A DNA stretch of 64,000 bases from Halothiobacillus sp. GTDB lineage: Bacteria > Pseudomonadota > Gammaproteobacteria > Halothiobacillales > Halothiobacillaceae. The notes under the pieces are model-generated. The model was not told the DNA's origin. It saw only the letters and a program-made list of their open reading frames with translations, and made no database searches. Numbering within the stretch: position 1 is the first letter of the stretch; each line of letters begins with the position of its first letter. The stretch spans positions 62,001-126,000 of the forward strand of contig JADQCE010000003.1 in NCBI GenBank assembly GCA_016278265.1, given 5' to 3'. This document shows positions 2,051-21,440 of the stretch, one piece after another. The position numbers were made by a program, and so were the translations under genes.

Positions 2051-2114
2051 TCGCCGGGAACCAGTCTCGGCCCAGGGGATCAGGCGACGAGACGCATCTC
2101 GAGGGTCGTGGCGG

Positions 2115-5874: not shown

Positions 5875-6192
5875 TTAACTCCCTTTACAGCCGATATACT
5901 CCCTAATTTCCTCCTTGACACTCTCATATCGACTGACTAAACGAATCTTATTGCATAGAGACTGAGAATCAAAACCCGAAACCCTAACCAAACCACCAAA
6001 CGCCTCCTCCAAAAAAGAAGACCCGTAGCCCATAACACCATCGAGATCCACCGTTAAAACCTCGCACTGCTTGAGTGCTGGAACCAAGAAATCTTCCCGA
6101 AAACGCTCACCAGTGTAAGGACCATCATCCCTAAAGCGCCCAGCAGGGAACCGAGAAAAATCCGATGCTACCGTTATTTCACATTTCGACAT
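5875..6192 (-). CDS. STAS-like protein (DUF4325 type)
   Basis: 105 residues matching my memory of the DUF4325 STAS-like family: an N-terminal FSRFPAGRF strand and turn, then a central VLTVDLDGVMGYGSSFLEEAFGG strand-turn-helix. This is the place where STAS anti-anti-sigma proteins carry their regulatory Ser/Thr; here the turn reads GYGSSF. ATG 6192 is chosen over an in-frame TTG at 6210. With it the gene begins seven bases after the ATPase stop. Such proteins are known next to GHKL ATPases, and the pair recalls SpoIIAA/SpoIIAB partner switching. The role proposed here, target or regulator of the ATPase, is inference. Confidence 0.75.
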   Translation of the reverse strand: MSKCEITVASDFSRFPAGRFRDDGPYTGERFREDFLVPALKQCEVLTVDLDGVMGYGSSFLEEAFGGLVRVSGFDSQSLCNKIRLVSRYESVKEEIREYIGCKGS

Positions 6193-6199
6193 ATTAAAA

Positions 6200-7273
6200 T
6201 CACGCCGCAATTGATTGAATCGGGACTTGCCAGAATACTACCGTCCCATTAATCGAGGCTGAGTAATCTTTCGTTGTTTCGACCGAGGGAACCCCCGTCT
6301 TCTCGCCTTCAGGGCCGAAAGAATAGCATCCTTTGTTGCTATAAATCAGGAGACGCCCCCGCCCCATCTGCTCAATTGCCATCTTAAGGCGGCTCATACC
6401 CTTACCTCGGTATGACTCGCCCGTCCGCGATCTTGCGTGCTCAATCGTTGCCGCGACAATCTTCCCCTCATCCTCAGCACCAAATCGTGCCAGGATTTTT
6501 TCTCGAACGGGCTCCCACCAACCTTTCCGTGTAACCGTAGTAGGAATGCCGAGGCCTAGATCACAGACCAGAACTATAAGGTAGCCCGCATCCACTCCCG
6601 AAAACATCCACCACCTTTTGTCGTCTGGGAATGAGCCCTCGGCTCCAATCTCAGAGATCATTCGGGAGTCATATGCATGACTATGTGCATTATCTATAGC
6701 CTCGGAGAAGGCATTAAAAAGAAACCAACGATCATCCTCTGACATAGGTGTCTCTCTACACAAGCGATCAAAATGATCTGCCGCTGACTCAGCATCCACT
6801 TCCGACCTACTTACATGATGCCAAAAGTTTACATCGTTCCGATTAACGGTTACATCTTTTAGAACACCCAATTTCTCAGACAATCCTATCTGCTTGATAA
6901 CCTGAGCAACCTTATCCGAGCGCACATTCTTGATTCGAACACAAGTCCTTTTGGTTTTATTGACAACCATGTCTATTGCAGCCAAAACAAGAATCATTCC
7001 ATCTGCTATGACGCGAGTTGTCCTTGTAAAGTCCAAAACAAGAGTGCCAGCCTCAGTATCTGCCATCCCCCTTATTCGGCTAACAATTCTCAATGTTTCG
7101 TCCCGACTCTGATGTAGACCTATAGACTCCGGCATAAACAAAGTGTTTTTTTCACGACCGAGGCGCTCCTTTACATGAGGAGGCCTCGGCTTCCGCTTCG
7201 TCCTCCAAAAACGCTTGGACCTAACCTTTTTTTCAATACTTTTATTTTTAAATAAGTTATTAGATTTTTTCAT
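6200..7273 (-). CDS. GHKL-type ATP-binding protein with N-terminal STAS-like region
   Basis: 357 residues. The first 45 are strongly basic (many Lys/Arg). Residues about 50-150 look like a STAS-like alpha/beta domain (TLVLDFTRTTRVIADGMILVL). Residues about 175-350 are a GHKL ATPase: N-box E191-AI-D194-N195-AH-S-H199, G1 box D238-LG-LG-I-P, and a glycine-rich lid Y288-RGKG-M. No dimerisation/phosphoacceptor histidine domain or receiver is present, so this is not an ordinary sensor kinase. It could be an anti-sigma-like serine kinase or a bare ATPase switch. It is the first gene of an AT-rich three-gene cassette; no clear ribosome-binding site precedes ATG 7273. Substrate and output are unknown. 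Confidence 0.75.
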   Translation of the reverse strand: MKKSNNLFKNKSIEKKVRSKRFWRTKRKPRPPHVKERLGREKNTLFMPESIGLHQSRDETLRIVSRIRGMADTEAGTLVLDFTRTTRVIADGMILVLAAIDMVVNKTKRTCVRIKNVRSDKVAQVIKQIGLSEKLGVLKDVTVNRNDVNFWHHVSRSEVDAESAADHFDRLCRETPMSEDDRWFLFNAFSEAIDNAHSHAYDSRMISEIGAEGSFPDDKRWWMFSGVDAGYLIVLVCDLGLGIPTTVTRKGWWEPVREKILARFGAEDEGKIVAATIEHARSRTGESYRGKGMSRLKMAIEQMGRGRLLIYSNKGCYSFGPEGEKTGVPSVETTKDYSASINGTVVFWQVPIQSIAA

Positions 7274-7332
7274 GTTAAGCAGCTAAAGATAAAAAAGCAC
7301 CACAGAGAAAAAGCCCAAAGCCTTTCGAAAAT

Positions 7333-7800
7333 TTACTGAGCACTCCCGCTCCGCGTCGACGGAGCTTCGTCACTACCAGAAAACAATTCATCGATCAGCG
7401 GCGCGATCTTGGTGCGGGTCGGCCCAAACTTGTCCATCCGCCCACCCCCATTCCGAGCGTCATAGGTCGCACGCCCCTCAATCCCATCCTGGCCAAACAC
7501 CTTGAGATCGGCATAGGAGAGATACATCACCATGTCCCAGCGCCAGTTGGCGGTGTACTCGAGGTAATGGGAGCAGCCAACCGGCCGCTCGCCCCTGTAC
7601 ACCTCCGTATACACGCCTTGTTCCTCGATCAGTTCGCAGACGGCCGGCTCGAAGCCGTCCATCAGCACATCGGGGTTGTGCTCGACACAGATGCGCTCGA
7701 TGTCATTGTCGGCGACCGGCTGGACGTTCTGGGTGATGGAGCAGCCGCTCAGCCCGAGCAGCAGACCGAGGCCGGCGATGAGTTTCGCTTGTGGTGACAT
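7333..7800 (-). CDS. Outer-membrane or periplasmic lipoprotein (Sbal_3080-like)
   Basis: 155-residue precursor with a type II signal peptide: LGLLLGLSGC, with the lipobox LSGC placing the lipidated cysteine near residue 19. ATG 7800 is chosen because AGGAGGTGTC lies directly before it; the frame is open for another 49 codons upstream without such support. The mature part is about 135 residues with several cysteines (ICVEH, AVCELI, VGCSHY) that may form disulfides. It resembles the family called Sbal_3080-type lipoprotein, of unknown function. A short CAGCTTCC-like low-complexity run at 7965-7985 lies upstream. Confidence 0.75.
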   Translation of the reverse strand: MSPQAKLIAGLGLLLGLSGCSITQNVQPVADNDIERICVEHNPDVLMDGFEPAVCELIEEQGVYTEVYRGERPVGCSHYLEYTANWRWDMVMYLSYADLKVFGQDGIEGRATYDARNGGGRMDKFGPTRTKIAPLIDELFSGSDEAPSTRSGSAQ

Positions 7801-8000
7801 GACACCTCCTTGGTCAGCGGTGATTCCCTGCGGGGCATTGCACCCCGGATTCGAATGGTCGCATGTTTGGGTGGCGTGGTGCGCAACTGGTCGGAATTCG
7901 TCACTCAAACAAAAGGCCAGCGGCCGACGGGTGTTCCCGTACGGCACGCTGGCCTCTCTCTTCTAGCTTCCGGCTGTCAGCTTCCAGCCAGCCCTGCTTC

Positions 8001-8113
8001 GGCCCCACCCAAACCTGCTGGGCGTTGACGAACATCTTGATGCCTTGCGAGCGCTAGCTCGCGGCCGGAGCCGGAGCCGGAGCCGGGGCACTTGACGCCG
8101 CCGCTGGCCGACG
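8001..8113 (-). pseudogene. Decayed fragment of the doeC 3' end
   Basis: The first 43 bases (8001-8043) match the stretch beginning at 9652, inside the 3' end of doeC, with only a single substitution. They encode the terminal FVNAQQVWVGP of the aldehyde dehydrogenase. The match continues more loosely to about 8113, with a GGAGCC triplication in between and loss of the reading frame. It lies on the same strand about 1.6 kb beyond doeC, with corA in between. A partial duplication, or a leftover from an inversion or insertion that moved corA in, would explain it. It is not expected to be expressed. Confidence 0.8.
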
Positions 8114-8186
8114 CACCTTGTTCGGCACCGTTCCTGCTGGTTGCCGGGGTGAAGCGTGTTGAAAATGCGGCAGGGCCAGCCGGGTC

Positions 8187-9272
8187 TCACAGCCATTTCT
8201 TCCGGCGGAAAAACCCGACCATGCCGATGGCAACGGCGAGCATGAAGCCCAGGACCAGAAAGTAGCCCCAGGGCCACTTGAGTTCCGGCATGTATTCGAA
8301 GTTCATGCCGTACACGCCGGCGACAAAGGTCAGGGGGATGAAGATGGTCGCGATGATGGTCAGCACCTTCATGATCTCGTTCATGTGGTTGCTGATGCCC
8401 GACAGGTAGGTGTCGTGCATGCTGCCCAGCACATCCCGGAACGTCTCCACCATGTCGATGACCTGGATGGTGTGGTCGTACAGATCGCGCAGGAACACCT
8501 TGGTCTCCGGCCGGATCAACGCCGATTCGCTCCGATCCAGGGCGCCGATCTCCTCGCGCAGGGGCCAGACCGCCTTGCGCTGGCTCAGTATGTCGCGCTT
8601 GAGCCGGTGAACTTCCAGCATGGCGTCGGGCTTGGGATCGGCCAGGATCTGGTCATCGAAGTCCTCGATGCGGTCCCCGATGCGCTCGACGGCCAGAAAG
8701 TAATTGTCCACCACGGCATCCATCAGCGCGTACGCCAGGTAATCGGCCTTCATTGACCGGATGCGCCCCTTGGTGGCCCTGATGCGTTCGCGCACCGTGT
8801 TGAAGACGTCGCCGTCCTTTTCCTGAAAGGACACCACATAGTTTTCTCCCAGGATCAGGCTGACGTGTTCGATCTCCGTCTGACTTGCCGCCTCGTCGTA
8901 GGAGATCATCTTCAGCACCACGTAAATATATTCCGGGAACTCCTCGCTCTTGGGCCGATGAGTGGTGTTGACGATGTCCTCCAGCGTCAGGGGATGAAGG
9001 CCGAGGCGATTGCCCAGCGACCCGATCAGGCCCACGTCGTGGATGCCGTTCACATTGATCCAGCTCACACCGGGCCCCGTTGCCGACTCCACGGCTTGAG
9101 CCACCGAAACATCGTGCCGTTCCTTCATCCGGCTTTCGCTGTACTCGATGAGATCGATGCGCGCCGCGTTCATTTCCTGCTCCCCGATGAACACCATGGT
9201 TCCGGGGGGCAGACCTGCCTTGGCGCTGGCCCTACGTGGCCTTTCCCGCTTCCTTTTCCTCAATTTCGCCAT
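8187..9272 (-). CDS. corA: CorA-type magnesium/cobalt transporter
   Basis: 361-residue member of the CorA channel family, which imports Mg2+ (and Co2+/Ni2+) as a pentamer. The soluble N-terminal part (about 1-295) contains the long stalk helix. Two C-terminal membrane segments follow (about 297-320 and 335-355). The loop between them starts with the signature YGMNF, the selectivity-filter motif. The C-terminus is basic (FRRKKWL), as usual for the cytosolic end. The first 20 residues are an extra basic stretch (KLRKRKRERPRR). It stands alone on the minus strand between the doeC fragment and a gene-free 360 bp. Confidence 0.93.
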   Translation of the reverse strand: MAKLRKRKRERPRRASAKAGLPPGTMVFIGEQEMNAARIDLIEYSESRMKERHDVSVAQAVESATGPGVSWINVNGIHDVGLIGSLGNRLGLHPLTLEDIVNTTHRPKSEEFPEYIYVVLKMISYDEAASQTEIEHVSLILGENYVVSFQEKDGDVFNTVRERIRATKGRIRSMKADYLAYALMDAVVDNYFLAVERIGDRIEDFDDQILADPKPDAMLEVHRLKRDILSQRKAVWPLREEIGALDRSESALIRPETKVFLRDLYDHTIQVIDMVETFRDVLGSMHDTYLSGISNHMNEIMKVLTIIATIFIPLTFVAGVYGMNFEYMPELKWPWGYFLVLGFMLAVAIGMVGFFRRKKWL

Positions 9273-9634
9273 TCTCCGTCCTCCGCGCGCATTGCCACCA
9301 GGCGCATCAACCCGGTCGCGCTGCTGTTAACACCGCCTGGCGTCGGGCCCCTGAGTCCAGGTTTTGCCACCGGGAACGCACTGGAAACCCATATCAAAGG
9401 AATAGGCCCAAACATCCATCCCCGCCAATGAGTCGCCCTTTGCACTCGGGGGAGAACGGCCTGTTCTGGATTAACAGCCCGCCCGTTCGGGTTCTCGCAT
9501 CGATCCATCCGGTGCAGGCGCAAGGACGCGGGAATCGCCATCCGAGCGCCTCATATCATTTCCCCTGATGCCCGGATCTGGGCTCTTTCCCGCTGACCTT
9601 TTCCTTCTTCGAGCGTCGGACGGTCCGCTCCGGA
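9273..9634. other. Intergenic region without recognisable genes
   Basis: About 360 bp between the corA start and the doeC stop. It must hold the corA promoter and the 3' end of the doe transcript. I see no clear rho-independent terminator after doeC, no RNA gene and no conserved small frame. Overlapping short frames on both strands look like chance products of GC-rich sequence. Confidence 0.5.
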
Positions 9635-11011
9635 CTAGCCCGTCTTCGGCCCCACCCACACCTGCTGGGCGTTGACGAACATCTTGATGCCATGCGGACC
9701 GAGCTCGCGGCCGTAGCCGGAGCGCTTGACGCCGCCGCTGGGCAGGCGCGGGTCGGTCTTGACGATGCCGTTGATGGCGACCTGGCCGGCCTCGATGTCG
9801 CGGGCCATGTTGATGGCGCGGGCGGTGTCGCCGGTCCAGACGGCCGCACCCAACCCGTACTGGGTGCCGTTGGCGATCTCGAGGGCGTGATCCGCATCGC
9901 GCGCGGACATGGCCACGGCGATCGGGCCGAAGGTCTCCTCGCAGAAGGCGACCATGGAGTCATCGACGTCCGCGAGCAGGGTGACCGGGTAGAAAAAGCC
10001 GTCTCCTTGCGGCATCTCGCCGCCCACCAGGCAGCGTGCGCCGGCCTCGATACTCGCCTGCACCTGGCGATGCAGCCCCTCTCGCAGGTCGGCACGGGCA
10101 ATGGGCCCGACGTCGGTGGATTCCTCGCGCGGGTCGCCCATCTTCAGTTTCTCGAGGCGAACTTTCATCATGTCGAGGAAGCGCTCGTAAATGGACTCCT
10201 CGATGATGATGCGCTTTGCGGCAATGCAGGACTGGCCCGCGTTGATGATCCGCGAGAGCACCACGGTGTCGGCGGCAGCCTCCAGATCGGCGTCCGCCAG
10301 CACGATCACCGGGTCGGAGCCACCCAGCTCCAGCACGGCGGGCTTGATCTGCCGGGCGGCGGTGGCCGCGACGATCGCGCCGGCACGGTCGGAACCGGTG
10401 AAGGAGACGGCGCGCACGCACTCGGTCTCGATCGCGCCCTGGATATCCTCGGTTTCCAGCGGCAGGTTCTGGAACACGCCCTGCGGGAAGCCGGCCTTCT
10501 CGAAGGACTCCATGATGCCCGCCGCGCAGGCCGGCACGTGGGCGTCGTGCTTCATCACGCAGGTGTTGCCGGCCATCAGGGCCGGGGCGGCGAAACGGAA
10601 GGCGAGCCAGAACGGCGCGTTCCACGGCAGGATGCCCAGCACGGTGCCGATCGGCAGGTACTGGACGTAGCTGACCGTGGCGTCCGAGCCGAGCATCTCC
10701 GGCTCGAGGTACTTCTCGGCGTGATCGGCGTAGTGCTCGGCGCACCAGGCGGCCTTGTCGACCTCGCCACGCGCCTCGCGGATGGGCTTGCCCATCTCGT
10801 CGGTCATCAAGAGGGCCAGGCGCTCGCGATCCTCGCGCATCACCTCGGCCACCCGCCGCAACAGGGCGGCGCGCTCGGCAAAGCTGGTCTTGCGCCAGTC
10901 GCGGTAGGCCACCTCGCTGCGCTCGAGGATGGCGTCGCGCTGGGCCGGGTCCATCACCGGGAATTCGTGCAGTGTCTTACCCGTGGTCGGGTTGATGACG
11001 GTCTGGCTCAT
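9635..11011 (-). CDS. doeC: Aspartate-semialdehyde dehydrogenase of ectoine catabolism (DoeC-type aldehyde dehydrogenase)
   Basis: 458-residue NAD(P)-dependent aldehyde dehydrogenase. The catalytic cysteine is C262 (NAGQSCIAAKR) and the general-base glutamate E228 (VLELGGSDP). The oxyanion asparagine lies in PWNAPFW and the NAD-fold signature SFTGSDRAG is present. By sequence alone it is close to succinate-semialdehyde dehydrogenases. Its place as the last gene of the doe operon, with an ATGA overlap (start 11011, doeA stop 11008), argues for oxidation of aspartate semialdehyde to aspartate, the last step of ectoine breakdown. No terminator was found after it. A degraded copy of its 3' end lies at 8001-8113. 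Confidence 0.85.
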   Translation of the reverse strand: MSQTVINPTTGKTLHEFPVMDPAQRDAILERSEVAYRDWRKTSFAERAALLRRVAEVMREDRERLALLMTDEMGKPIREARGEVDKAAWCAEHYADHAEKYLEPEMLGSDATVSYVQYLPIGTVLGILPWNAPFWLAFRFAAPALMAGNTCVMKHDAHVPACAAGIMESFEKAGFPQGVFQNLPLETEDIQGAIETECVRAVSFTGSDRAGAIVAATAARQIKPAVLELGGSDPVIVLADADLEAAADTVVLSRIINAGQSCIAAKRIIIEESIYERFLDMMKVRLEKLKMGDPREESTDVGPIARADLREGLHRQVQASIEAGARCLVGGEMPQGDGFFYPVTLLADVDDSMVAFCEETFGPIAVAMSARDADHALEIANGTQYGLGAAVWTGDTARAINMARDIEAGQVAINGIVKTDPRLPSGGVKRSGYGRELGPHGIKMFVNAQQVWVGPKTG

Positions 11012-12396
11012 GAGGCGCGCGACTCCTTGGGTTTCTTCTGGGATTGCTTCTGGGCTTTCTTGTCCGTTTTCTTCTGGGCCTTCGTCTCGGATTTCTTCTG
11101 GACCTTCTTCTCAGGTTTCTTGTGGTCCGGCTTGCCGTGGGGCTTGGCCCTGGACTTCTTCTCGTCCTTGGCGTGGGCGACGGCGAGCTGTTCGATCATC
11201 GGCCGCTCTTCCTGGATCTCGCGCTTGGCCTCTTCGCGCTTGACGGTGAAATCCTGCTCGAGCGTGAAGAAGGACTCGCAGCCATCCTTGGTGATGTAGA
11301 TGGTGTCGGAGATGCCGCAGGTCTTGTCACCGTCCACGCCCCAGGCCCAGGGGATGATGTGGAAGGTCATGCCCTCGCGCAGTACCGTCTTGTCGCCTTG
11401 CATCAGGCTGAGGATGTAGCCCTCGTCCCAGCTGGGCGGGAAGGCGATGCCGATGGAATAGCCCGAGCGGGTGATCAGCTTCCCGTGGGCATCGTCGACG
11501 GTCATGATCGAGCGGACCAGGTTGTCGGCATCGGAGACGGTCACGCCCGGACGGATCAGGGCTTTGACCCGTTCGAGGGCCTCTTTCATGCGCTCCTGGG
11601 CCTTCCACATCAGATCGGTGGGCTCGCCCAGCACGGCGGTGCGCATCATCGCGGTGTGGTAGCGGCGGTAGCAGCCGGCCACTTCCAGGAAGACGTGCTC
11701 GCCCGGCTTGACCACGCGGCCCTCCCAGGTGGCGTGGCCGATCATGGTGCGCGGCCCGGAGGTGACGTAGGGCAGCACGGCGGGCGGCTCGCCGCCGGCA
11801 CGGAACATCGCCGCGCAGACCTCGGCGCCGATCTCGTTCTCGGTCACCCCGGCCATGCAGGCCTCGAGACCCGCCTTCATGCCGGCCTCGGTGGCGACGG
11901 CCGCCCGGCGCATGATGTCGATCTCGTGCTTGGACTTGGTACGCCGGCCGCACTCAACGATGCCGAAGCAATCGAGCAGGTGTGCGCCGGTCAACGTGGT
12001 GTGCAGCGCATCCTGCTGGTAGGCGGGGAAGAAGTAGCTGTTGCGCTCGTAGCCGATGTGCTTGTTCGCCAGGCCGAACTCCTTCAAGGAGGAGACCAGC
12101 ATCTGGATGGCATCACCGGTATCCGGGTAGGGTCGGGTGATCTCCACCCAGGTGCGCGCGTGGACGTTGGATTCCTCCATCGTCCGCGTGATCATGAACG
12201 GCTTGTCGTCGAGCGGCACCACCAGCGCCTGGAAGAACGAGTACCCCGTGGTCTGGTAGTCGGTGAGGTACATCAGGTTTTCGGGGTCGGTGATGATCAC
12301 CGCGTCGAGCAACCGTTCGGCCATGCGCATGCGCAGTTCGCCCAGCCGTCGCTCGTACTCTTCCATCGGGAAGGTCATGTCGTCGCGTTGGCGCAT
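11008..12396 (-). CDS. doeA: Ectoine hydrolase DoeA with a lysine-rich C-terminal tail
   Basis: 462-residue M24 (creatinase/prolidase-fold) hydrolase that opens the ectoine ring to N-acetyl-diaminobutyrate. The creatinase-like N-terminal domain covers about 1-150 and the pita-bread catalytic domain about 155-390. The positions that carry metal-binding aspartates in prolidases read EVAGCYRRYHTAMMRT, so the site is more like metal-free creatinase. ATG 12396 is chosen: it overlaps the doeD end and is preceded by GGAGGG eight bases upstream. The last 70 or so residues are an unusual Lys/Gln/Glu-rich low-complexity tail of KKSETKAQKK-like repeats that is absent from the enzyme fold and would be strongly basic. 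The function call rests on the fold plus the doeB2-D-A-C gene order. Confidence 0.88.
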   Translation of the reverse strand: MRQRDDMTFPMEEYERRLGELRMRMAERLLDAVIITDPENLMYLTDYQTTGYSFFQALVVPLDDKPFMITRTMEESNVHARTWVEITRPYPDTGDAIQMLVSSLKEFGLANKHIGYERNSYFFPAYQQDALHTTLTGAHLLDCFGIVECGRRTKSKHEIDIMRRAAVATEAGMKAGLEACMAGVTENEIGAEVCAAMFRAGGEPPAVLPYVTSGPRTMIGHATWEGRVVKPGEHVFLEVAGCYRRYHTAMMRTAVLGEPTDLMWKAQERMKEALERVKALIRPGVTVSDADNLVRSIMTVDDAHGKLITRSGYSIGIAFPPSWDEGYILSLMQGDKTVLREGMTFHIIPWAWGVDGDKTCGISDTIYITKDGCESFFTLEQDFTVKREEAKREIQEERPMIEQLAVAHAKDEKKSRAKPHGKPDHKKPEKKVQKKSETKAQKKTDKKAQKQSQKKPKESRAS

Positions 12397-12400
12397 CGGG

Positions 12401-13675
12401 TCAGCCCTCCACCTGGGCATCGACGGCCTGCTCGAAGAGGTTCAGGCCTTCCTCGAGGTCGTCGTCGGGAATGGTCAGCGGCGGGATCAGCTTGATCACC
12501 TGCCCCTTGGAACCGCAGACCGCCGCCAGCAGGCCGCGGTCGAAGCACTCGCGCGCCACCCGCTTGGACAGATCCCCGTCGATGAAATCCAGCGCCTGCA
12601 TCATGCCGCGGCCGCGCACGGCAAAGCGCGGGTACTTCGCCGCGATCTTCTCCAGGCGTTTGCGGATCACCTCGCCCTTGCGGCGGGTCTCGTCCATGAA
12701 GGACGGGTCGTCGAAGTAGCCCAGCGCCACGGTGCCGGCGATGAACGACAGGTCCTGCCCGCGGAAGGTGCCGGTGTGCTCGCCCGGCAGCCAGTGCTTG
12801 TCGTGCTCCGGCTTGTTGAGGTTCATCGCGATGGGCGTGCCGAAGCCGCCGAGTCCCTTGGCCAGGGTGATGATGTCCGGGTCGAGGCCCATGTCGTCGA
12901 AGCTGAAGTACGAGCCGGTGCGCCCGGAGCCCATCTGGATGTCGTCGACGATAAACAGCGCGCCGGTCTCGCGGGCCAGGTCCTGGATGCCCTTGAGCCA
13001 TTCCTGGGAGGCAACGCGCACACCGCCCTCGGCCTGGACGGTCTCGACCAGGAAGGCCGCCGGCGGGGCATAGCCGGTCGACGGGTCGGCGTAGATGTCG
13101 CGCAGGCGCTCGAGCGACGGCATGCCGCAACCCAGCGTGCAATTCGGGCACTGGGTCTCGCAGCCGAAGGCCTGGTGGACAACGTTGTCCAGCGGCACGC
13201 CGGCGGCATTGCGGAAATGCGCGTTGGTGGTCGCGGCCAGCGCGCCGAGGGTCATGCCGTGGAAGGCATGGTGGAAGGAGACCACCTGCTGCCGGCCGGT
13301 GACGCGACGGGCAAGTTTCAATGCCGCTTCGACCGCGTTGGTGCCGGTCGGGCCGACGAACTGCAGCCGGTAGTCCATGTCGCGCGGTTTCAAGACCGTC
13401 TCGACGAACTTGGTGATGAAGGCGCGCTTGGCGGTGGTGTACATGTCCAGGCTGTGAGCGACGCCGTCATTCTGGATGTAGTCGATCAGCGCGTCCTTCA
13501 TCTTCGGGTCGTTGTGCCCAAAGTTCAGCACCCCGGCGCCCGCATAGAAATCGAGATAACTTCGCCCCTGCTCGTCGGTCTGACGCGCGTTACTCGCCGA
13601 ATGAAACACGGTCGGCGCGGCGCGGCAGTACGCGCGGATCTCGGATTCCCACTGCTCGAACACCTGCATGTGCAT
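12401..13675 (-). CDS. doeD: Diaminobutyrate aminotransferase of ectoine catabolism (DoeD)
   Basis: 424-residue class III PLP aminotransferase, related to EctB. PLP lysine is K273 (LAKGLGG), the pyridine-nitrogen aspartate is D244 (VDDIQMG), and the phosphate-binding GPTGTNAVE lies at about 109-117. In the pathway it converts 2,4-diaminobutyrate to aspartate semialdehyde. ATG 13675 (MHMQVF) has GGGGAG eight bases upstream; the longer frame lacks support. Residues 172-183 carry a four-cysteine cluster C-x3-C-x2-C-x3-C within the catalytic domain, which I do not associate with EctB-type enzymes and which could bind metal. The gene stops just before the doeA start, so translation is probably coupled. 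Confidence 0.87.
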   Translation of the reverse strand: MHMQVFEQWESEIRAYCRAAPTVFHSASNARQTDEQGRSYLDFYAGAGVLNFGHNDPKMKDALIDYIQNDGVAHSLDMYTTAKRAFITKFVETVLKPRDMDYRLQFVGPTGTNAVEAALKLARRVTGRQQVVSFHHAFHGMTLGALAATTNAHFRNAAGVPLDNVVHQAFGCETQCPNCTLGCGMPSLERLRDIYADPSTGYAPPAAFLVETVQAEGGVRVASQEWLKGIQDLARETGALFIVDDIQMGSGRTGSYFSFDDMGLDPDIITLAKGLGGFGTPIAMNLNKPEHDKHWLPGEHTGTFRGQDLSFIAGTVALGYFDDPSFMDETRRKGEVIRKRLEKIAAKYPRFAVRGRGMMQALDFIDGDLSKRVARECFDRGLLAAVCGSKGQVIKLIPPLTIPDDDLEEGLNLFEQAVDAQVEG

Positions 13676-13786
13676 TGACGCTATCTCCCCTGGTTGCGGG
13701 TGTAATCGGGCCCACCGCCGCGCGGCGGGCCCCTGTGCCGGTTCGTCCGGCACGTGTGTCGGTCGACAGGGCGGGCCTGTCGTCGT

Positions 13787-14956
13787 TCAGTCCGTCGCGA
13801 TCTCGACCGGGGCGCCGACCAGGTCGGCGAAGATGCGCCCCACCGGGTCGATCAGCCGGTCGTTGAAGTCGTAGCGCGGGCTGTGGCAGGGCTCGTGGTG
13901 CCCTTGCCCGTCGTCGGCGCCGATCAGAGCGAAGGCGCCGGGGACTTCCCGAAGGTAGTAGCTGAAATCCTCTGACGCCATGATCGGGACCGGCAGGCTG
14001 CTATCACGCCAGTCGACACCCAGGGCTCGCGCCAGGGCGCCGCGGTAGTGCGCGGCCGCCTCCGGATGGTTGACGGTGGCGTGGTAGCGGGGAGTGAAGG
14101 TAAAGCGTGCCTCGACGCCGTAGGCCGCCGCGGTATCGCGGGCGATCTGGTCGAGATGCTGGGCCACCGCGTCGCGCTGGTCGGTGCGCTCGACGCGCAC
14201 GGAACCGGCCAGGCGGGCCGTGTCGGGGATGGCGGTGATCGCCCCGCCGGCCTCGAAGGTGGTCACGCTGACCACCGCGGCAGTCTGCGGCGCCAGCCGG
14301 CGCGAGACGATCTGCTGGATGGACTGGACCAGCGCGGCGCCGGCGAGCAGCGGGTCGCGGCAGGCCTCGGGCTGGCTGGCGTGACCGCCGCTGCCGGTCA
14401 GTCGGATCTCGAAGGTGCCGTTCGCCCCCATCACCGGGCCGTCCGGGCAGACGGCCTGGCCGAAGGGGATCGCCGGCCAGTTGTGCCAGCCGAACACCCA
14501 GTCCACGCCCTCGAGCGCACCGTCACGGATCATCTCGCGCGCACCGTGCCCACCTTCCTCGGCCGGCTGGAACAGCAGCGTGACCGGGCCGGGCAGGTGG
14601 TCCTCGCAGGTCTTGAGCCAGCGGGCGACCGCCAGCAGCGTCGCGGTGTGCCCGTCGTGACCGCAGGCGTGCATGATCCCCGGCGTGCCAGAGGCCCACT
14701 CGGCGCCGGTGATTTCCTCGATGGGCAGGGCGTCGATGTCCGCGCGCAGGGCAATGTGCCGGCCGCGCGCCTCGGGGGCAATCCGCCCCACCGTGCCGGT
14801 GCCGGCACAGGCGCGCCAGGGGATGCCGAGATGATCGAGCTCCGTGCGAATGGTCCCGGCGGTGGCGTGCTCCTGCCAGGTCAATTCCGGGGCCTGATGC
14901 AGGCGGCGACGAAAGGCGGTGGCCTGGGTGGCGATGTCGGTCCAGATCGAGGGCAC
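13787..14956 (-). CDS. doeB2: M20 family amidohydrolase, probable N-acetyl-diaminobutyrate deacetylase DoeB2
   Basis: 389-residue M20D (hippurate hydrolase-like) metallopeptidase fold. Metal and catalytic motifs are MHACGHDGH (about 95-103), the EEGGHG glutamates (about 136-142), HNW (about 157-159) and the late SEDFSYY. In the doe context it should remove the acetyl group from N-acetyl-2,4-diaminobutyrate. Classical DoeB belongs to the AstE/AspA family, so this enzyme is the alternative DoeB2 type; no AstE-type DoeB is seen in the window. It is the first gene of the leftward operon. The 111-bp gap to doeD contains GC-rich hairpin-prone sequence. General M20 acyl-amino-acid hydrolase activity cannot be excluded. 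Confidence 0.78.
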   Translation of the reverse strand: MPSIWTDIATQATAFRRRLHQAPELTWQEHATAGTIRTELDHLGIPWRACAGTGTVGRIAPEARGRHIALRADIDALPIEEITGAEWASGTPGIMHACGHDGHTATLLAVARWLKTCEDHLPGPVTLLFQPAEEGGHGAREMIRDGALEGVDWVFGWHNWPAIPFGQAVCPDGPVMGANGTFEIRLTGSGGHASQPEACRDPLLAGAALVQSIQQIVSRRLAPQTAAVVSVTTFEAGGAITAIPDTARLAGSVRVERTDQRDAVAQHLDQIARDTAAAYGVEARFTFTPRYHATVNHPEAAAHYRGALARALGVDWRDSSLPVPIMASEDFSYYLREVPGAFALIGADDGQGHHEPCHSPRYDFNDRLIDPVGRIFADLVGAPVEIATD

Positions 14957-15287: not shown

Positions 15288-16715
15288 ATGCTGTTCGAAG
15301 CGTTCGAAGAAACCGGCCTGTCACAAATGAGCTATGCCGTTGGTTGTCAGCAGAGCAATGAACTGGCGATCATCGACCCGCGCCGGGACATCGACATTTA
15401 CCTCGATTTCGCCGAGGAAGAGGGCTATGTGATCCGGCACGTCATGGACACCCACATCCACGCCGATTACGCCTCCGGCGCACGCGAGCTGGCCGAGGTG
15501 ACCGGCGCGAAGCTGCACCTGTCGGCCTACGACGACAACGAGGTCTTCGATGTGGGCTTCGACCACCTGCCGATACAGGAGGGCGACTCGGTGCAGATGG
15601 GCAACGTCCGCATCGAGGCGCTGCACACGCCGGGCCACACGCCGGAACATATCTCGTTCCTGGTCTTTGATGGGGCGCGCTCGGCCGACGTGCCGGTGGT
15701 CGCCCTGACGGGTGACTTCCTGTTCGTCGGCAGCCTCGGCCGCCCCGACCTGCTGGGCGAAGAGGCCACCCGCGGCCTGGCCAAGCAGGCGTTCCACAGC
15801 GTGCGCGAGAAGCTGCGCGGCCTGCCCGACGGGCTGGAGATCCGCCCGGGGCACGGCGCGGGCTCGGCCTGTGGCGCCGGCCTGTCCGGGCGCACGGTCT
15901 CGACGCTGGGTTACGAGCGCGTCGCCAACCCGCTGCTCGACCCGTCTCTGACGGAAGACGAATTCATCGACACCCTGCTCGGCAACCTGCCGCCGGCACC
16001 GGACTTCTACCCCCGCAACAAGGTCACCAACTCCGAGGGGCCCAAGCCAGTGCAGGGTATGGTCGACCTGCTGGCCGAGGAGATCGAGGTGTTCGACATC
16101 GACGATCTCAAGGCGCAGATGGCCAACGGTGCGGTGGTCATCGACATCCGCGACCGGCTGGCCTTCAACGCCGCGCACATCAAGGGTTCGCTGGGCATCG
16201 AGTACGGCGACAACCTCTCCACCTGGGCCGGCTGGATCGCCCCGCCGGACCAGCCGCTGATCCTGGTCGACCACGAGGGTGACGACGAACTGATCAGCGA
16301 GGCGATCCGCGCGCTGGTGCGCGTCGGGCAGGACAACGTGGTCGGTTTCCTCGACGGCGGCTTCGATGCCTGGCTCAAGGCCGGCGAGGCGTTCGACAAC
16401 CTCCCGCTGGTCGACGCCGAAACCGCCAAGAACGATCTCGACCACGACCGCCGCGCGCTGTGGGACGTGCGCGAGACCAGCGAATGGGACGAAGGTCATG
16501 CGCTGGGTGCGCGCCACACCCCGGCCCACGACGCCCGCGACGGGCTCGACGGCGTCGGCAAGGACGAGCCGATCACGCTGGTCTGCGGCTCGGGCATGCG
16601 CTCGACCGTCGCCGCCAGCCTGCTGCGGCGCGCCGGCTACACCAACGTCGCCAACCTCATGGGCGGCATGGACGCCTGGGAAGAGGCCGGCCTGCCGGTG
16701 GTCGCCAAGGACTGA
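15288..16715 (+). CDS. Persulfide dioxygenase-rhodanese fusion (CstB/PRF-like)
   Basis: 475-residue cytosolic protein for sulfane sulfur oxidation. The N-terminal metallo-beta-lactamase-fold domain of ETHE1 type (about 1-250) has the iron-binding motif HIHADY, then HTPGHTPEH and GDFLFVGSLGRPDL. Two rhodanese domains follow. The first (about 265-365) lacks a catalytic cysteine: its active loop reads VDHEGDDEL. The second (about 375-475) has the active CGSGMRST loop. A GGGGAGC ribosome-binding site precedes ATG 15288. The pairing predicts oxidation of persulfide to sulfite, with sulfur transfer by the rhodanese. A terminator follows at 16741, so it is probably monocistronic. Confidence 0.9.
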   Translation: MLFEAFEETGLSQMSYAVGCQQSNELAIIDPRRDIDIYLDFAEEEGYVIRHVMDTHIHADYASGARELAEVTGAKLHLSAYDDNEVFDVGFDHLPIQEGDSVQMGNVRIEALHTPGHTPEHISFLVFDGARSADVPVVALTGDFLFVGSLGRPDLLGEEATRGLAKQAFHSVREKLRGLPDGLEIRPGHGAGSACGAGLSGRTVSTLGYERVANPLLDPSLTEDEFIDTLLGNLPPAPDFYPRNKVTNSEGPKPVQGMVDLLAEEIEVFDIDDLKAQMANGAVVIDIRDRLAFNAAHIKGSLGIEYGDNLSTWAGWIAPPDQPLILVDHEGDDELISEAIRALVRVGQDNVVGFLDGGFDAWLKAGEAFDNLPLVDAETAKNDLDHDRRALWDVRETSEWDEGHALGARHTPAHDARDGLDGVGKDEPITLVCGSGMRSTVAASLLRRAGYTNVANLMGGMDAWEEAGLPVVAKD

Positions 16716-16740
16716 TCAATCGCCGGGTCGAAAACGCGAA

Positions 16741-16770
16741 AGCCCCGCTCGGTCGAGCGGGGCTTTTTGT
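16741..16770 (+). terminator. Rho-independent terminator of the persulfide dioxygenase gene
   Basis: Stem AGCCCCGCTC / GAGCGGGGCT with a short loop, followed by TTTTTGT, 25 bp after the stop codon. Confidence 0.85.
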
Positions 16771-16790
16771 TTGCGCGGACACCAACTCCG

Positions 16791-16820
16791 AAAACAACAA
16801 ACCCCGTCTGACGACGGGGT
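16791..16820 (-). terminator. Rho-independent terminator of the 1180-codon gene
   Basis: On the minus strand a hairpin ACCCCGTC / GACGGGGT (16801-16820) is followed by a T-rich run (TTGTTGTTTT), about 200 bp after the stop of the large leftward gene. It lies back to back with the previous terminator. Confidence 0.7.
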
Positions 16821-17021
16821 CTGGCTGATTCGATCGAGCCCAGCACGGCCTAGAAGGGTTATATTCACCTGAGCATCGCGATTAATGTTTTTATTCTTTG
16901 TTTATCAATTGGTTGAGATTGTTCCGCAACGAACCTGCCGCATTTTTCGTTATTTTTTTCTGAGCCGACCCGTCCAAACGCCACACCCCCCCAAGTCGTC
17001 GAAGCAAGCGACCACCAAAAG

Positions 17022-20000
17022 TCACCCACCCTCTCGGTCCCCATGGTCAGAAATGATCCTTTCTGCATCGCGGTCATAACTGCCAGCCAACTCTTTCAAG
17101 GTTACGGCAAGCCGTGTATAGCCGGCGTTCTCCACCTCTTCAGCTTGCTGCCGGTAGCCCTCAGCCAGCTTCCGCTCAGGCTCCCCGGTCGGATCAACCC
17201 AATGAGCGCCTCGTGAATTGAACTTTCCTGTTCTAAAGCCACTGCGCATGTCACCAGAATCACGCTCGTCCAACGCGTCAGCGACAGCCCGGGAGATCCA
17301 CAATCCATCAGGATCGGGCGGAGCATGGATTAACACCTCGCCGACGTGGACCATGGCTACCTCCAAATGCCCGCTCTCTGTGCAAAGCTCTTTCACTCTT
17401 CCAAGCCATTCAACAAAGCACTCTTCGCAAAAAGCCCCATCATCTTGCATACCAGGAGGGGTCTTCCACTCATGAAGCAGCCTCCATGCATTTGCTGCAA
17501 CTGCCTTTGAGTCCTCCGTCACTTCCTCCACCGGAATGTCGTCGGACTTGGAGCGATAGATCAGCCGGATCACCTCGCAAAAAAAATCAGCATCGTTCGC
17601 CAATCTACCTTCCAAGAGTCGGGGTGAGGCACCGCCATAACGATTAAGGAGCGGGATGTATGCCCACTCAACGGAGAAGAGTCCGTCACGACTGACCGAA
17701 GAATCCTTGTGCAAGAACTTAATCAGCTCGACAATTTGGTACTGATCCATTGCATGGCCGGACTCACCTGAGTCCACAGCCGCCAACAACGCTTCCACAC
17801 ATTGGTCCGAATCTATTGGCTGCTTGGCATGCCGCATCCTATCCAGGCAGTCTATCGCCGCGTGCGGTCGCCCATTAACGATAAGCTTGCCAACAGCAAT
17901 CGATAGGTCACCATCAGCTTCATATGGATTGGCGCCAGTCCGACGCCAATATTGCGCCTCATCCTCGCCAAGCCAGTCAGTAGCTCGACGCCACGCACCC
18001 TCTGTGAATGGACAGCAGGCAAGAAATTGACTCAACTGAGCTGCTGTCCAGTCTGATTTTTCGATGTGGTCACACCAGCCCCAGCCATCGTTTTGGCAAC
18101 GTTGCCGAACAAAACTGCAAGCTAACGCTCGTCGCTTTTTTTCTTGGGCGACCAAAAAGCTAGGTAAAAGAGCCGCTTCGAGATCCTCATCGGAGATAGA
18201 GGCAAGTGCATATCCGACCTGATCGGCTGAGGGCACCGACTCGGAAAACCGAACAACGCCATCTATGCCGTCTTGTCGAATTATTTCCGCCACAGCCACT
18301 TCTCTCCGTTGAGTCAGCCTCTTCCTTTGTTCGTCCCAGTCACCGTTTCTGTCATATAGATCAAAGTCACGATTAGAAAACAAATGACGGTACAAGTTGA
18401 AAGGGTTCGCGGGGGCAAGTTGGCCCAAAACCCTTTCAATCCTGTCAAGCGACTCACCCGGCAACGCCCATTCTGCGTCCGAGAACCGCCTATGCTTGTT
18501 GGTGAGTCTCGACAGGCGACCCCAAATCCCAAGCCTCTGCTCTTCAGACAGTTGTGCTATCGAAGGGGAAGCGAGCACCACCAGAAGTCTATCAATCGCA
18601 GAGTTGGTTAGACTGTCGATTTGATCGATCAAAGTAGAGAGCCGCTCCAGATCAAATCCTGCCTCATCCACCGCAAGTTCGGCATAGGACGACACCTGCT
18701 CCCAATATTCACTTTGCGTGACTCCTTTTTCCCAATCGCTGGGAATTACATCACGCCAACTTGGCTTATGCGACCCGAATGAGGTCTGGTGCTGACCTGG
18801 CAGAAGCTGAATAAGCAAACTCCAGCCTACCTCGGGAAACTCCCGAAGGATCGCTTTCACCGCGACCAGACGCTTCTCGATTGGGGCGAGAGTCTGAGGG
18901 AGCCAAGGCAACAGAATGGTTGCGAGAGAATTAGCCGGGCGATTGGCCCAGCGGCCACCCGGATCATGGCTCGCAATCTCGCCGAGCACTACACAGACAC
19001 GAACCAAGTGCTGCTCTTCCCAAGCCAAACCCTCAAGCGCCCACAACAAACCGGTCAGGTAATTGCCCCCCATTACACCATCTCCTTCCTCTTCAAAGAG
19101 ATCGTCAAAAGGACATGATTCCCGACGCATTGCCTCTTCTACGGCGCTAAGAAACTCACCGGGAGCGGCTTCGGCCAAGGCTGGAAGCAAGCCATTCAAA
19201 CTTCCCCAAACAACCCAGTCGCCTTGCCCTATCAGGTCTCGGACCACCAACACAGAGGTCGCTTCAGCCTTACCTCGCGAGCAGTTAACGCACACCTCGG
19301 ACTGCGTGCCTAGAATGGCCAACCCTTCGGCGATCCCCTTTCGCAAGACCTGAGAGCATCTCGGCTCCTTTCCATAAACGCTGGCTGCGTACCGCTCTTC
19401 TGCGGGCAGTTCAAAGGCAGGGTCAGGCTCTCCCAACACGGAGACCGCCAATGAATTGAACTCATCGAGGTTCCCATCCAGAATCCGCGAACCGAGCAGA
19501 CTCCAAAGCTCGGCCCGACGGGCAACTTTCCAGGTTCCATCTTTTAGAGTTAATGGGCTGTCAGGTCGGTGCAATATCTCTCGGGCCTTCTGTAACCAGT
19601 CCTCATAATCAATGCCGAGCAATTGCTCTACTACATCACGATCACACTTGCTCGCGTCTTGCCATGCGCCGAGCAAGACTGCCAATCCCAGAAATGAAGC
19701 GTCAACGTGCTGACTCCAGTCAGTATCAGGTCGTCCGCGCGCCTCCTTAAGCTCATTAGGCATCTCAACCACAGCTTTTTGAGCAAATGCCTCTCTAAGA
19801 TCTTCGGGTAACTTATCAGGCGTTATAGTGCCGGCGTCCTGATTCCAGGTTTGAACGATGTCGACGACCCGAGACCACACCCACTGCGGATAGTCCTTCT
19901 GGAATTGAGAGATATGGGAGTGCAACAATGACAGGGCAACGCCGAACTCAGAACCAAGATCGTAGCCAAGCAGATGGAAGCAGTTTAAGAACTCATACAG

Positions 20001-20564
20001 TTCATCCGACGATACATCGTTCCCTCCGTTTGCGTCCCGCAGGTGGTGCCGAAATACGTCCAGCTTTTCCGGAGCCTTGTCTGGACTGAACCGACTTCGG
20101 TGGACGTTCCTTAAAAACTCTTCGACATTACTTGTGTGCCTCGCCTGGCCCAGCAACCACTGCACGGTACGATCATCGCTTGCGCTTATTGGACCCGTTA
20201 TCAGCGCAATAATGTCATTGCCTCGTGAAAAAGTGGCTGTATTGTTGAAGTCATCCCATGCCGCTTGTATCACGTCCGCAAGCTTACTGCTTCCCTGCGT
20301 AATAGAAATTGAATGCTTAATCTGGCCGAGGAGTTTCCTTCGATCTTTTGTGCTTTGGTTTTCAACCACAACAATCAGATCGTCAGTTTCAAACCCATCA
20401 ACTTTTCCTTGCAGCTTGACTTCCTTAATGGGCCAGCAGGGAAGACACGGCGCATGCCCGTCAGTAAGCATTAGCGCAACAAACGAAGCCTGGACATGCG
20501 CTTCAAAATGAACGCCTCCACCACCAGTTGAATATGGGTTACTTAACTTTTTCCGTTCTGCCAT
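17022..20564 (-). CDS. Large protein with predicted DUF4297/Cap4-like N-terminal nuclease; candidate defence gene
   Basis: 1180 residues, starting at the ATG at 20564. The N-terminus (about 10-130) opens with a glycine-rich YSTGGGGVHFE motif, then LQGKVDGFETDDLIVVVE and LLGQIKHS. This gives E21, D56/D61/D62 and Q81-x-K83 in the order of a PD-(D/E)xK-type nuclease with a QxK end, as in DUF4297/Cap4 proteins. The remaining 1000 or so residues look helical and repeat-like (many LL..AL, W-rich helices) with scattered cysteines. No Walker A motif, helicase or methylase motif is seen. Base composition is clearly lower in GC than the flanks. It stands alone between the persulfide dioxygenase gene and ssb. 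I recall similar large unnamed proteins in other proteobacteria. The nuclease call is moderate; the defence role is inference. Confidence 0.7.
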   Translation of the reverse strand: MAERKKLSNPYSTGGGGVHFEAHVQASFVALMLTDGHAPCLPCWPIKEVKLQGKVDGFETDDLIVVVENQSTKDRRKLLGQIKHSISITQGSSKLADVIQAAWDDFNNTATFSRGNDIIALITGPISASDDRTVQWLLGQARHTSNVEEFLRNVHRSRFSPDKAPEKLDVFRHHLRDANGGNDVSSDELYEFLNCFHLLGYDLGSEFGVALSLLHSHISQFQKDYPQWVWSRVVDIVQTWNQDAGTITPDKLPEDLREAFAQKAVVEMPNELKEARGRPDTDWSQHVDASFLGLAVLLGAWQDASKCDRDVVEQLLGIDYEDWLQKAREILHRPDSPLTLKDGTWKVARRAELWSLLGSRILDGNLDEFNSLAVSVLGEPDPAFELPAEERYAASVYGKEPRCSQVLRKGIAEGLAILGTQSEVCVNCSRGKAEATSVLVVRDLIGQGDWVVWGSLNGLLPALAEAAPGEFLSAVEEAMRRESCPFDDLFEEEGDGVMGGNYLTGLLWALEGLAWEEQHLVRVCVVLGEIASHDPGGRWANRPANSLATILLPWLPQTLAPIEKRLVAVKAILREFPEVGWSLLIQLLPGQHQTSFGSHKPSWRDVIPSDWEKGVTQSEYWEQVSSYAELAVDEAGFDLERLSTLIDQIDSLTNSAIDRLLVVLASPSIAQLSEEQRLGIWGRLSRLTNKHRRFSDAEWALPGESLDRIERVLGQLAPANPFNLYRHLFSNRDFDLYDRNGDWDEQRKRLTQRREVAVAEIIRQDGIDGVVRFSESVPSADQVGYALASISDEDLEAALLPSFLVAQEKKRRALACSFVRQRCQNDGWGWCDHIEKSDWTAAQLSQFLACCPFTEGAWRRATDWLGEDEAQYWRRTGANPYEADGDLSIAVGKLIVNGRPHAAIDCLDRMRHAKQPIDSDQCVEALLAAVDSGESGHAMDQYQIVELIKFLHKDSSVSRDGLFSVEWAYIPLLNRYGGASPRLLEGRLANDADFFCEVIRLIYRSKSDDIPVEEVTEDSKAVAANAWRLLHEWKTPPGMQDDGAFCEECFVEWLGRVKELCTESGHLEVAMVHVGEVLIHAPPDPDGLWISRAVADALDERDSGDMRSGFRTGKFNSRGAHWVDPTGEPERKLAEGYRQQAEEVENAGYTRLAVTLKELAGSYDRDAERIISDHGDREGG

Positions 20565-20876
20565 CTATGGCCACCATCCATTGTCTAAGAAAACCAGCGA
20601 AGCTCACTTGTTCGTTGCAGAGATGACTAATCTGTATGCCCTCGATCGATCGCCGGCAACGGACGAGTCAAATCCCGGTCACTCAACCCCCTGGGCACGC
20701 GTTGTACTGCCACCGGGGACGAACTGCTCCCGCAGGGCAGGCTCTCGCTCCCCCTGCTTTAGGCGCTCATTCCTCGCTTCTAGGCGCGCTAGGGGCTCGG
20801 CAACCGAAACCGCAAAAAAGCCCCTGAAAGACAGGGGCTTGGGTTAGGATTGCAACACCTTATTCTAAGGTAAATG
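20565..20876. other. Intergenic region upstream of the large gene
   Basis: About 310 bp containing the ssb terminator at its right end and presumably the promoter of the leftward 1180-codon gene at its left end, in an AT-richer part near 20570-20660. Open frames here encode no recognisable product. Confidence 0.5.
20814..20840 (-). terminator. Rho-independent terminator of ssb
   Basis: On the minus strand the stem AAGCCCCTG / CAGGGGCT is followed by TTTTTT, about 40 bp after the ssb stop codon. Confidence 0.85.
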
Positions 20877-21440
20877 CTAGAACGGAATATCGTCCTCGCC
20901 GAAGCCGTCGTCGATCGACTTGGCCGGGCGCTGGTCCTGGCTCGGCGGCGGGGGCGGTGCGCCGTAGTCGGACTGGCCACCGCCGTAACCCGCGCCGGCA
21001 CCAGCTGCGGCGCCACCGCCGTAACCGCCCTGGTTACCTTGGCCACCCTGGCTGGCCTGGCCACCGCCGTAGCCGCCGCCCTGGCCGCCACCAGCGCCCG
21101 GACGGCCGCCGAGCATCTGCATCTCGTTGGCGACGATCTCGGTCGTAAAGCGGTCCTGGCCGTCCTGACCCTGCCATTTGCGGGTCTGCAGGCGGCCTTC
21201 GATGTAGACCTGGCTGCCCTTCTTCAGGTACTCGCCGGCGATCTCGGCGAGCTTGCCGAAGAAGACGATGCGGTGCCACTCGGTGTTCTCGCGGTTCTCG
21301 CCGGTGGTCTTGTCGCGCCATTGCTCGGAGGTGGCCACGCGGATGTTGGTGACCTGGCCGCCGGACGGCAGGTAACGCACGTCCGGGTCGACCCCGAGGT
21401 TGCCGATGATGATTGCCTTGTTCACACCGCGGCTAGCCAT
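20877..21440 (-). CDS. ssb: Single-stranded DNA-binding protein
   Basis: 187 residues. OB-fold ssDNA-binding domain at about 1-110 ([19 protein letters not shown], then the [21 protein letters not shown] core). A long Gly/Gln/Pro-rich disordered linker follows (about 112-170). The acidic C-terminal tip is [11 protein letters not shown], the docking site for repair and replication partners. It functions as a tetramer in replication, recombination and repair. It is divergent from uvrA, the classical gammaproteobacterial arrangement, with about 200 bp between. No LexA box of the CTGT-N8-ACAG kind was found in that gap. Confidence 0.97.

Follow-up and report, generated by a model that had tools for sequence, protein, structure and literature searches.

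The locus and its setting

The 64,000-nucleotide stretch of Halothiobacillus sp. DNA analysed here (the window; contig JADQCE010000003.1) carries a single large reverse-strand gene (Table 1), flanked by ssb (20877-21440) on one side and by a persulfide dioxygenase-rhodanese gene (15288-16715) on the other. The ORF is free of internal stops and its ATG start agrees with the starts of relatives (MAERKKLSNPYSTGGGG in the Halothiobacillus protein and MAKRKKLSNSFSTG in L115). Judged by sequence comparison, its coding status is beyond doubt, because full-length relatives are 47-65% identical. The first-pass annotation had described a lone large gene of atypical composition at this site, and this description holds: GC is 0.53 and GC3 0.54, against a GC of 0.64-0.69 in the neighbouring genes measured and a GC3 of 0.86-0.92 in those flanking genes that were read in the right frame, and no plausible partner gene is present in the gaps 16716-17021 and 20565-20876. 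Elsewhere in the window, the region 9635-14956 resembles, by its translations, an ectoine-degradation cluster (dehydrogenase, M24 peptidase, aminotransferase and amidohydrolase).

Table 1. Coordinates of the features discussed. Positions without a contig label are those of the window and residue numbers are those of the Halothiobacillus protein; the last rows list the front-end types and their carriers.
Feature	Position or carrier	Strand	Basis or remark
Candidate gene, 1180 aa	17022..20564	-	One intact ORF, ATG start
Residues 5-130, predicted PD-(D/E)xK-type nuclease core	20175..20552	-	Motif invariance and highest conservation
E21	20502..20504	-	Kept in 19/20 relatives
D61-D62	20379..20384	-	Kept in 21/21 relatives
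Q81-x-K83	20316..20324	-	Kept in 21/21 relatives
Residues 131-283, helical region after the predicted nuclease	19716..20174	-	Up to about residue 260 common to STAND/Avs4-type proteins
Residues 284-1176, GapS6b-type HEAT-like solenoid	17037..19715	-	Homology, hhalign and model
Left boundary of stretch that the sister genomes G158 and G363 lack	16845..16858		
Right boundary of the same stretch	20877..20879		3' end of ssb
Frameshifted relic, 3' end of 134-aa recombinase-element gene	20630..20807	-	tblastn E=4e-9
Relics or small last gene elsewhere	L053:5653-5802, 6536-6742; L054:7441-7768, 8588-8992		Beside cargo
HEPN-like gene + solenoid gene	L022:8524-9168 + 9158-11740; L023:2-520 + 510-3095		Overlapping
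GapS6a + GapS6b pairs	L097:6980-7297 + 7306-10095; L090:5555-5875 + 5893-8685		
Type A	Halothiobacillus form		Nuclease-type module fused to solenoid
Type B	L017, L019, L004, L024, L099, L105, L106, L108, L092		Other nuclease-like domain (GWDG...WEIG) and Walker-A-less NTPase remnant
Type C	L020, L021, L091, L094, L101-L104		Type B with added HTH_3 domain
Type D	L022, L023		Separate upstream HEPN-like gene
Type E	L097, L090		GapS6a

The persulfide dioxygenase-ssb site (16845-20879; loci L051-L059) is a cargo hotspot in the genus. It is empty in the sister species G158, G363 and G372, and is occupied by a type II CBASS behind tyrosine recombinases in G374 (E1-E2 6.6e-185, cyclase 1.4e-125 and 2TM effector 5.6e-59, with the dioxygenase flank on another contig), by a Tmn-type NTPase in G370 (1.7e-54), by a Dcm-type methylase and a GHKL ATPase in G269, by Dcm, Vsr and GHKL genes with an IS3 element in G369, and by a PAS protein in G375. 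The tyrosine-recombinase block of G374 ends in an intact 134-aa gene (the whole element being L054:8588-13871); the window keeps the 3' end of this gene as a frameshifted relic, and G370 carries two similar relics. The simplest reading is that a recombinase element entered the 3' end of ssb with defence cargo and that its recombinases were lost afterwards. The G374 element was also considered as a Gamma-Mobile-Trio and rejected, GmtY scoring far below the cut-off.

The gene is horizontally acquired. Its full-length relatives adjoin tail-fibre genes in lambdoid prophages of E. coli, lie in a prophage remnant at tRNA-Thr, or are carried on a conjugative Shewanella plasmid beside Abi and superinfection-exclusion genes. 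The full-length form is rare, being found in 7 of 5,426 E. coli genomes, where all seven complete copies are annotated as hypothetical proteins; the E. coli prophage copies are 61% identical to the Halothiobacillus protein. The earlier proposal of a defence gene, for which a set of core-gene homologues was the alternative, is supported, since the homologues are patchy and are found on conjugative plasmids and in prophages as well as in a defence hotspot.

The N-terminal module

Sequence searches with the whole protein against Pfam, NCBIfam and the PDB returned nothing significant, and a PADLOC match of residues 11-134 to DUF626_VIII (E=0.005) was too weak for use. A Walker A (P-loop) motif of the form [AG]x4G[KR][ST] is absent from the 1180 residues and profile searches of Pfam, PADLOC and NCBIfam gave no match to an NTPase family, in agreement with the first reading of the gene, which had seen neither an NTPase motif nor a STAND/NACHT ATPase.

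The protein has the YSTGGGG opening described before, and conservation is highest in residues 5-130, which show 59-75% identity with full-length relatives. The order E, D/E, QxK, which had been noted as that of PD-(D/E)xK nucleases, is retained in relatives as low as about 22-28% identical, and since the E, DD and QxK residues are invariant, or nearly so for E21, across 21 such remote proteins, this order is not due to chance. One or more acidic residues followed by (D/E/Q)xK, as PD-(D/E)xK nucleases require, are strictly conserved here as D61, D62, Q81 and K83. The N-terminus is therefore predicted by motif to be of PD-(D/E)xK type. In the full-length model, helix 17-33, strands 45-52, 62-68 and 75-80, and helix 93-106 follow the alpha-beta-beta-beta-alpha order of the PD-(D/E)xK core, at low model confidence (pLDDT mostly below 50); an AlphaFold model of residues 1-285 alone, built from 7 sequences, which are too few relatives, has a mean pLDDT of 42. 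Of the Cap4/DUF4297-like start proposed earlier, the motif order and register stand, whereas family membership finds no significant support: the Pfam PF14130 (Cap4/DUF4297) model gave no match to the protein, and hhalign against real PF14130 proteins (dsDNA nuclease/DUF4297) gave a probability of 0.5% and an E-value of 0.12 with few sequences on either side, even though the top alignment places tDDlIV...QIK on hDDVlil...QIK with the catalytic motifs in register.

The front module occurs in 11 of 398 sampled Pseudomonadota genomes. A Walker A motif follows it in eight of the 11, near residue 310-350 in copies with an intact frame (one of these eight copies is split, and in another of the 11 the frame is unresolvable), and it is joined to the solenoid described below only in the Halothiobacillus genome and in G408, where a stop codon interrupts the copy. 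In PADLOC, a plasmid-encoded Hymenobacter protein that has this module matches Avs4 at 1e-114; viral contigs searched with the remote N-terminal modules yielded no relatives of use. Residues 5-260 can thus be assigned as the front module of STAND/Avs4-type proteins, with the solenoid standing in the place of the NTPase.

The solenoid and its front ends

The helical repeats anticipated for the C-terminal 1000 or so residues are seen in the AlphaFold model, in which residues 285-1176 form an all-helical repeat, mostly at pLDDT 80-95. The best matches among solved structures are the HEAT solenoids CAND1, transportin-3, importin-beta and PP2A-A; these are generic HEAT proteins, and for a helical repeat a Z below about 9 is uninformative on function. 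Complexes of condensin Ycg1 and FANCD2 are also among the fold matches and indicate that HEAT solenoids can bind DNA. Together with the restriction-modification genes that the hotspot also takes, they would suit a restriction-like, type IV-like protein, whose solenoid would directly bind modified, branched or linear DNA as it enters the cell and whose nuclease would cleave this DNA, leaving the host unharmed. We regard this as improbable, as the fold matches are generic and a purely DNA-targeting role would leave the HEPN-like, RNA-directed partner of the same solenoid (see below) unexplained.

A search of plasmids and genomes splits the relatives into those that match only residues ~283-1175, those that match only residues ~5-260 and a few whole-length proteins. 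Over ~890 aa, residues 284-1178 are 38% identical (E=0) to the large protein beside GapS6a, a 930-aa protein whose gene lies between an Ogr gene and the late-control gene D in a P2-type prophage of E. coli; its neighbour is identified as GapS6a by NCBIfam NF047935 antiphage_GapS6a (E=3e-40), and a second such pair lies on the viral contig L090, the 38% identity holding for both large proteins. This identity is why we assign the solenoid to the GapS6b type, and the first-pass annotation had missed this link of the putative sensor half to a named anti-phage system. The solenoid is also related, at a greater distance, to the C-terminus of PD-Lambda-4_A (hhalign probability 98%, E=3e-13, 490 columns), the control with a profile of Avs4-like C-termini giving a probability of 0.8% and E=0.074, and it is covered by PHROG 18693, of unknown function (E=3e-122).

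A polar motif near the solenoid C-terminus, GxxTGxxNSRGV...E at residues about 1109-1130 (17175-17242), is strongly conserved in all subfamilies, with N1116, R1118 and E1130 invariant, and is a possible functional site. It also bears on a reading in which the solenoid itself is the toxic, or translation- or replication-blocking, effector and the N-terminal domain has just a regulatory role or contributes another activity. GAPS6 pairs the solenoid with GapS6a alone and puts no nuclease ahead of it, so toxicity could reside in the solenoid, which is a counterpoint to a nuclease effector. This reading is unlikely in our view, though less so than the restriction-like one: front modules of at least four types are exchanged, nuclease-like and HEPN-like ones among them, as befits an exchange of effectors, and the catalytic-type residues of the front module are invariant.

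At least five front-end arrangements (A-E, Table 1) are found on this one solenoid type. The front domain of type B is related to the N-terminus of PD-Lambda-4_A (hhalign 95%, E=1.8e-8), and the region behind it (about residues 180-380 in L019, L004, L024, L017, L099 and L105) is collinear with the PD-Lambda-4_A NTPase and is apparently a pseudo-NTPase, with an ADSxEEAxAF-like conserved stretch in the place of Walker A. The upstream gene of type D is tentatively HEPN-like by its Rx4-6H motif (RNEHYH), has no Pfam match and overlaps the start of the solenoid gene, the position of the split within the solenoid being identical in two genera. A ribosomal frameshift was considered for these two loci and rejected, since the AGGAGG that closely precedes an ATG in the overlap is a sign of ordinary translational coupling. 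In the type E pairs, the C-terminus of GapS6a and the N-terminus of GapS6b have a short motif in common (NHSGTGDNIG / NHTGTGHNVAG), which could serve as a docking or oligomerisation tag. L076, L078 and L081 are PD-Lambda-4_A-like proteins with an intact Walker A and an N-terminal HTH-like domain as in type C.

A tree of 29 solenoids needs five front-end changes, against 16 expected with shuffled labels, and unites A, D and E in one branch with full support. Within it, the A-type proteins of S. baltica and Marinobacter group with GAPS6, not with the Halothiobacillus protein (98% SH-aLRT, in a short tree search), and for this reason GapS6b may have lost the nuclease, or the A-type may have gained it, more than once. 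Effector swapping is typical of immune sensors, and the variety of front ends on one solenoid supports such a reading here. The HTH_3 domain of one subfamily, and the annotation of some relatives as helix-turn-helix regulators or HigA-type antitoxins, would instead suit a role outside defence, as a regulator or an addiction module carried by mobile elements. We consider this very improbable, because an HTH is just one of several front ends and a domain profile search found none in the Halothiobacillus protein, the solenoid is common to GAPS6 and PD-Lambda-4, and the gene lies in a defence hotspot.

Proposed function and comparison with known systems

The nuclease module known from in front of STAND NTPases, the hotspot with CBASS, Tmn and Dcm/Vsr/GHKL genes, and the prophage, plasmid and Abi neighbours of relatives make the protein a convincing anti-phage candidate. 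We hypothesize, as the moderately probable best explanation, that it is an NTPase-less, mobile, single-protein anti-phage system composed of a PD-(D/E)xK-type nuclease and a GapS6b-type solenoid that senses a phage component. Activation of an effector by a sensor is proposed because a STAND-type nuclease module sits on a GAPS6 solenoid and because DSR2 and the dimerising nuclease domains of DUF4297/Avs3 offer precedents. The solenoid would bind a phage component made during infection; this binding would change or multimerise the protein, bringing the nuclease domains together, and the assembled domains would presumably cut DNA, so that the infected cell would die or stop before phage release. 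An ATP-driven switch would not be needed, and activation would be closer to that of DSR2 than to that of Avs. Relative to close prophage relatives the nuclease core is 71-75% identical and the last 480 residues, the least conserved, 53-61%, a pattern that fits a fixed effector joined to a diversifying sensor in an arms race.

Both halves of the protein belong to described systems and their combination looks new, the literature searched containing no description of a nuclease module of this kind on a GapS6b solenoid. The two exchangeable modules tie together GAPS6, PD-Lambda-4 and Avs4-like STAND proteins, which were described separately. In a broader scheme, a GAPS6 solenoid would have replaced both the STAND engine and the sensor in an Avs4-like protein, yielding an ATP-independent immune nuclease, and a single solenoid-sensor superfamily with interchangeable effectors would run from NTPase-driven (PD-Lambda-4) through degenerate to NTPase-free forms (the Halothiobacillus protein, GAPS6 and the HEPN-linked proteins); the idea of one superfamily stems from the PD-Lambda-4 link, and we hold the arguments for and against the scheme to be evenly balanced. 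A function would thereby be predicted for PHROG 18693, and the protein is a natural case in which to ask if an NTPase is required for switching on a STAND-type nuclease effector, a question that the 61%-identical E. coli prophage copies open to direct tests in laboratory strains of E. coli.

Among known systems, GAPS6 is reportedly one of the anti-phage systems that Mahata et al. described in 2024 from Gamma-Mobile-Trio islands, a study that PMC12715929 cites. The solenoid aligns over its full length with the 930-aa protein that accompanies GapS6a, and genes of both kinds are mobile and prophage-borne; whereas GAPS6 is a pair, the Halothiobacillus form is a single gene with a 283-residue nuclease-type module fused before the solenoid, no ORF for an adjacent GapS6a is present in 16700-17040 or 20550-20890, and the NCBIfam GapS6a model does not match the protein. 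PD-Lambda-4_A has a related C-terminal helical module but differs in its nuclease-like N-terminus and in an intact Walker A (GxSGVGKT), the NTPase between nuclease and helical part that is present in L071, L072 and others and absent from the Halothiobacillus protein. Its model found no match in the Halothiobacillus genome, nor did PADLOC report it for the protein, and the relatives L019 and L021 match it weakly. A functional screen of E. coli genomes yielded the PD systems (PMC9519451), and the name PD-lambda-4 is used, and listed under P-loop NTPases, in PMC10952713.

Cap4, DUF4297 and Avs3 proteins (PF14130) have the order hDDhhh ... hhxQhK in register with the Halothiobacillus motifs, without significant sequence or profile similarity to its N-terminus; their nuclease domains are related to one another, and in DUF4297 and Avs3 proteins these domains work as dimers that arise when a larger complex assembles (PMC11291478). 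Avs4-like STAND proteins have residues 5-260 in common with the Halothiobacillus protein at 22-28% identity, with E, DD and QxK conserved, but continue directly into a Walker-A NTPase and an unrelated C-terminal sensor, both of which the Halothiobacillus protein lacks. DSR2 comes closest in working principle, as it likewise joins an effector and a long helical sensor in one chain and, to our knowledge, does so without an NTPase. Its enzyme is a different one, a SIR2 NADase, and the likeness meant is one of principle; the DSR2 effector with its long helical sensor is triggered by a phage protein (PMC11087589).
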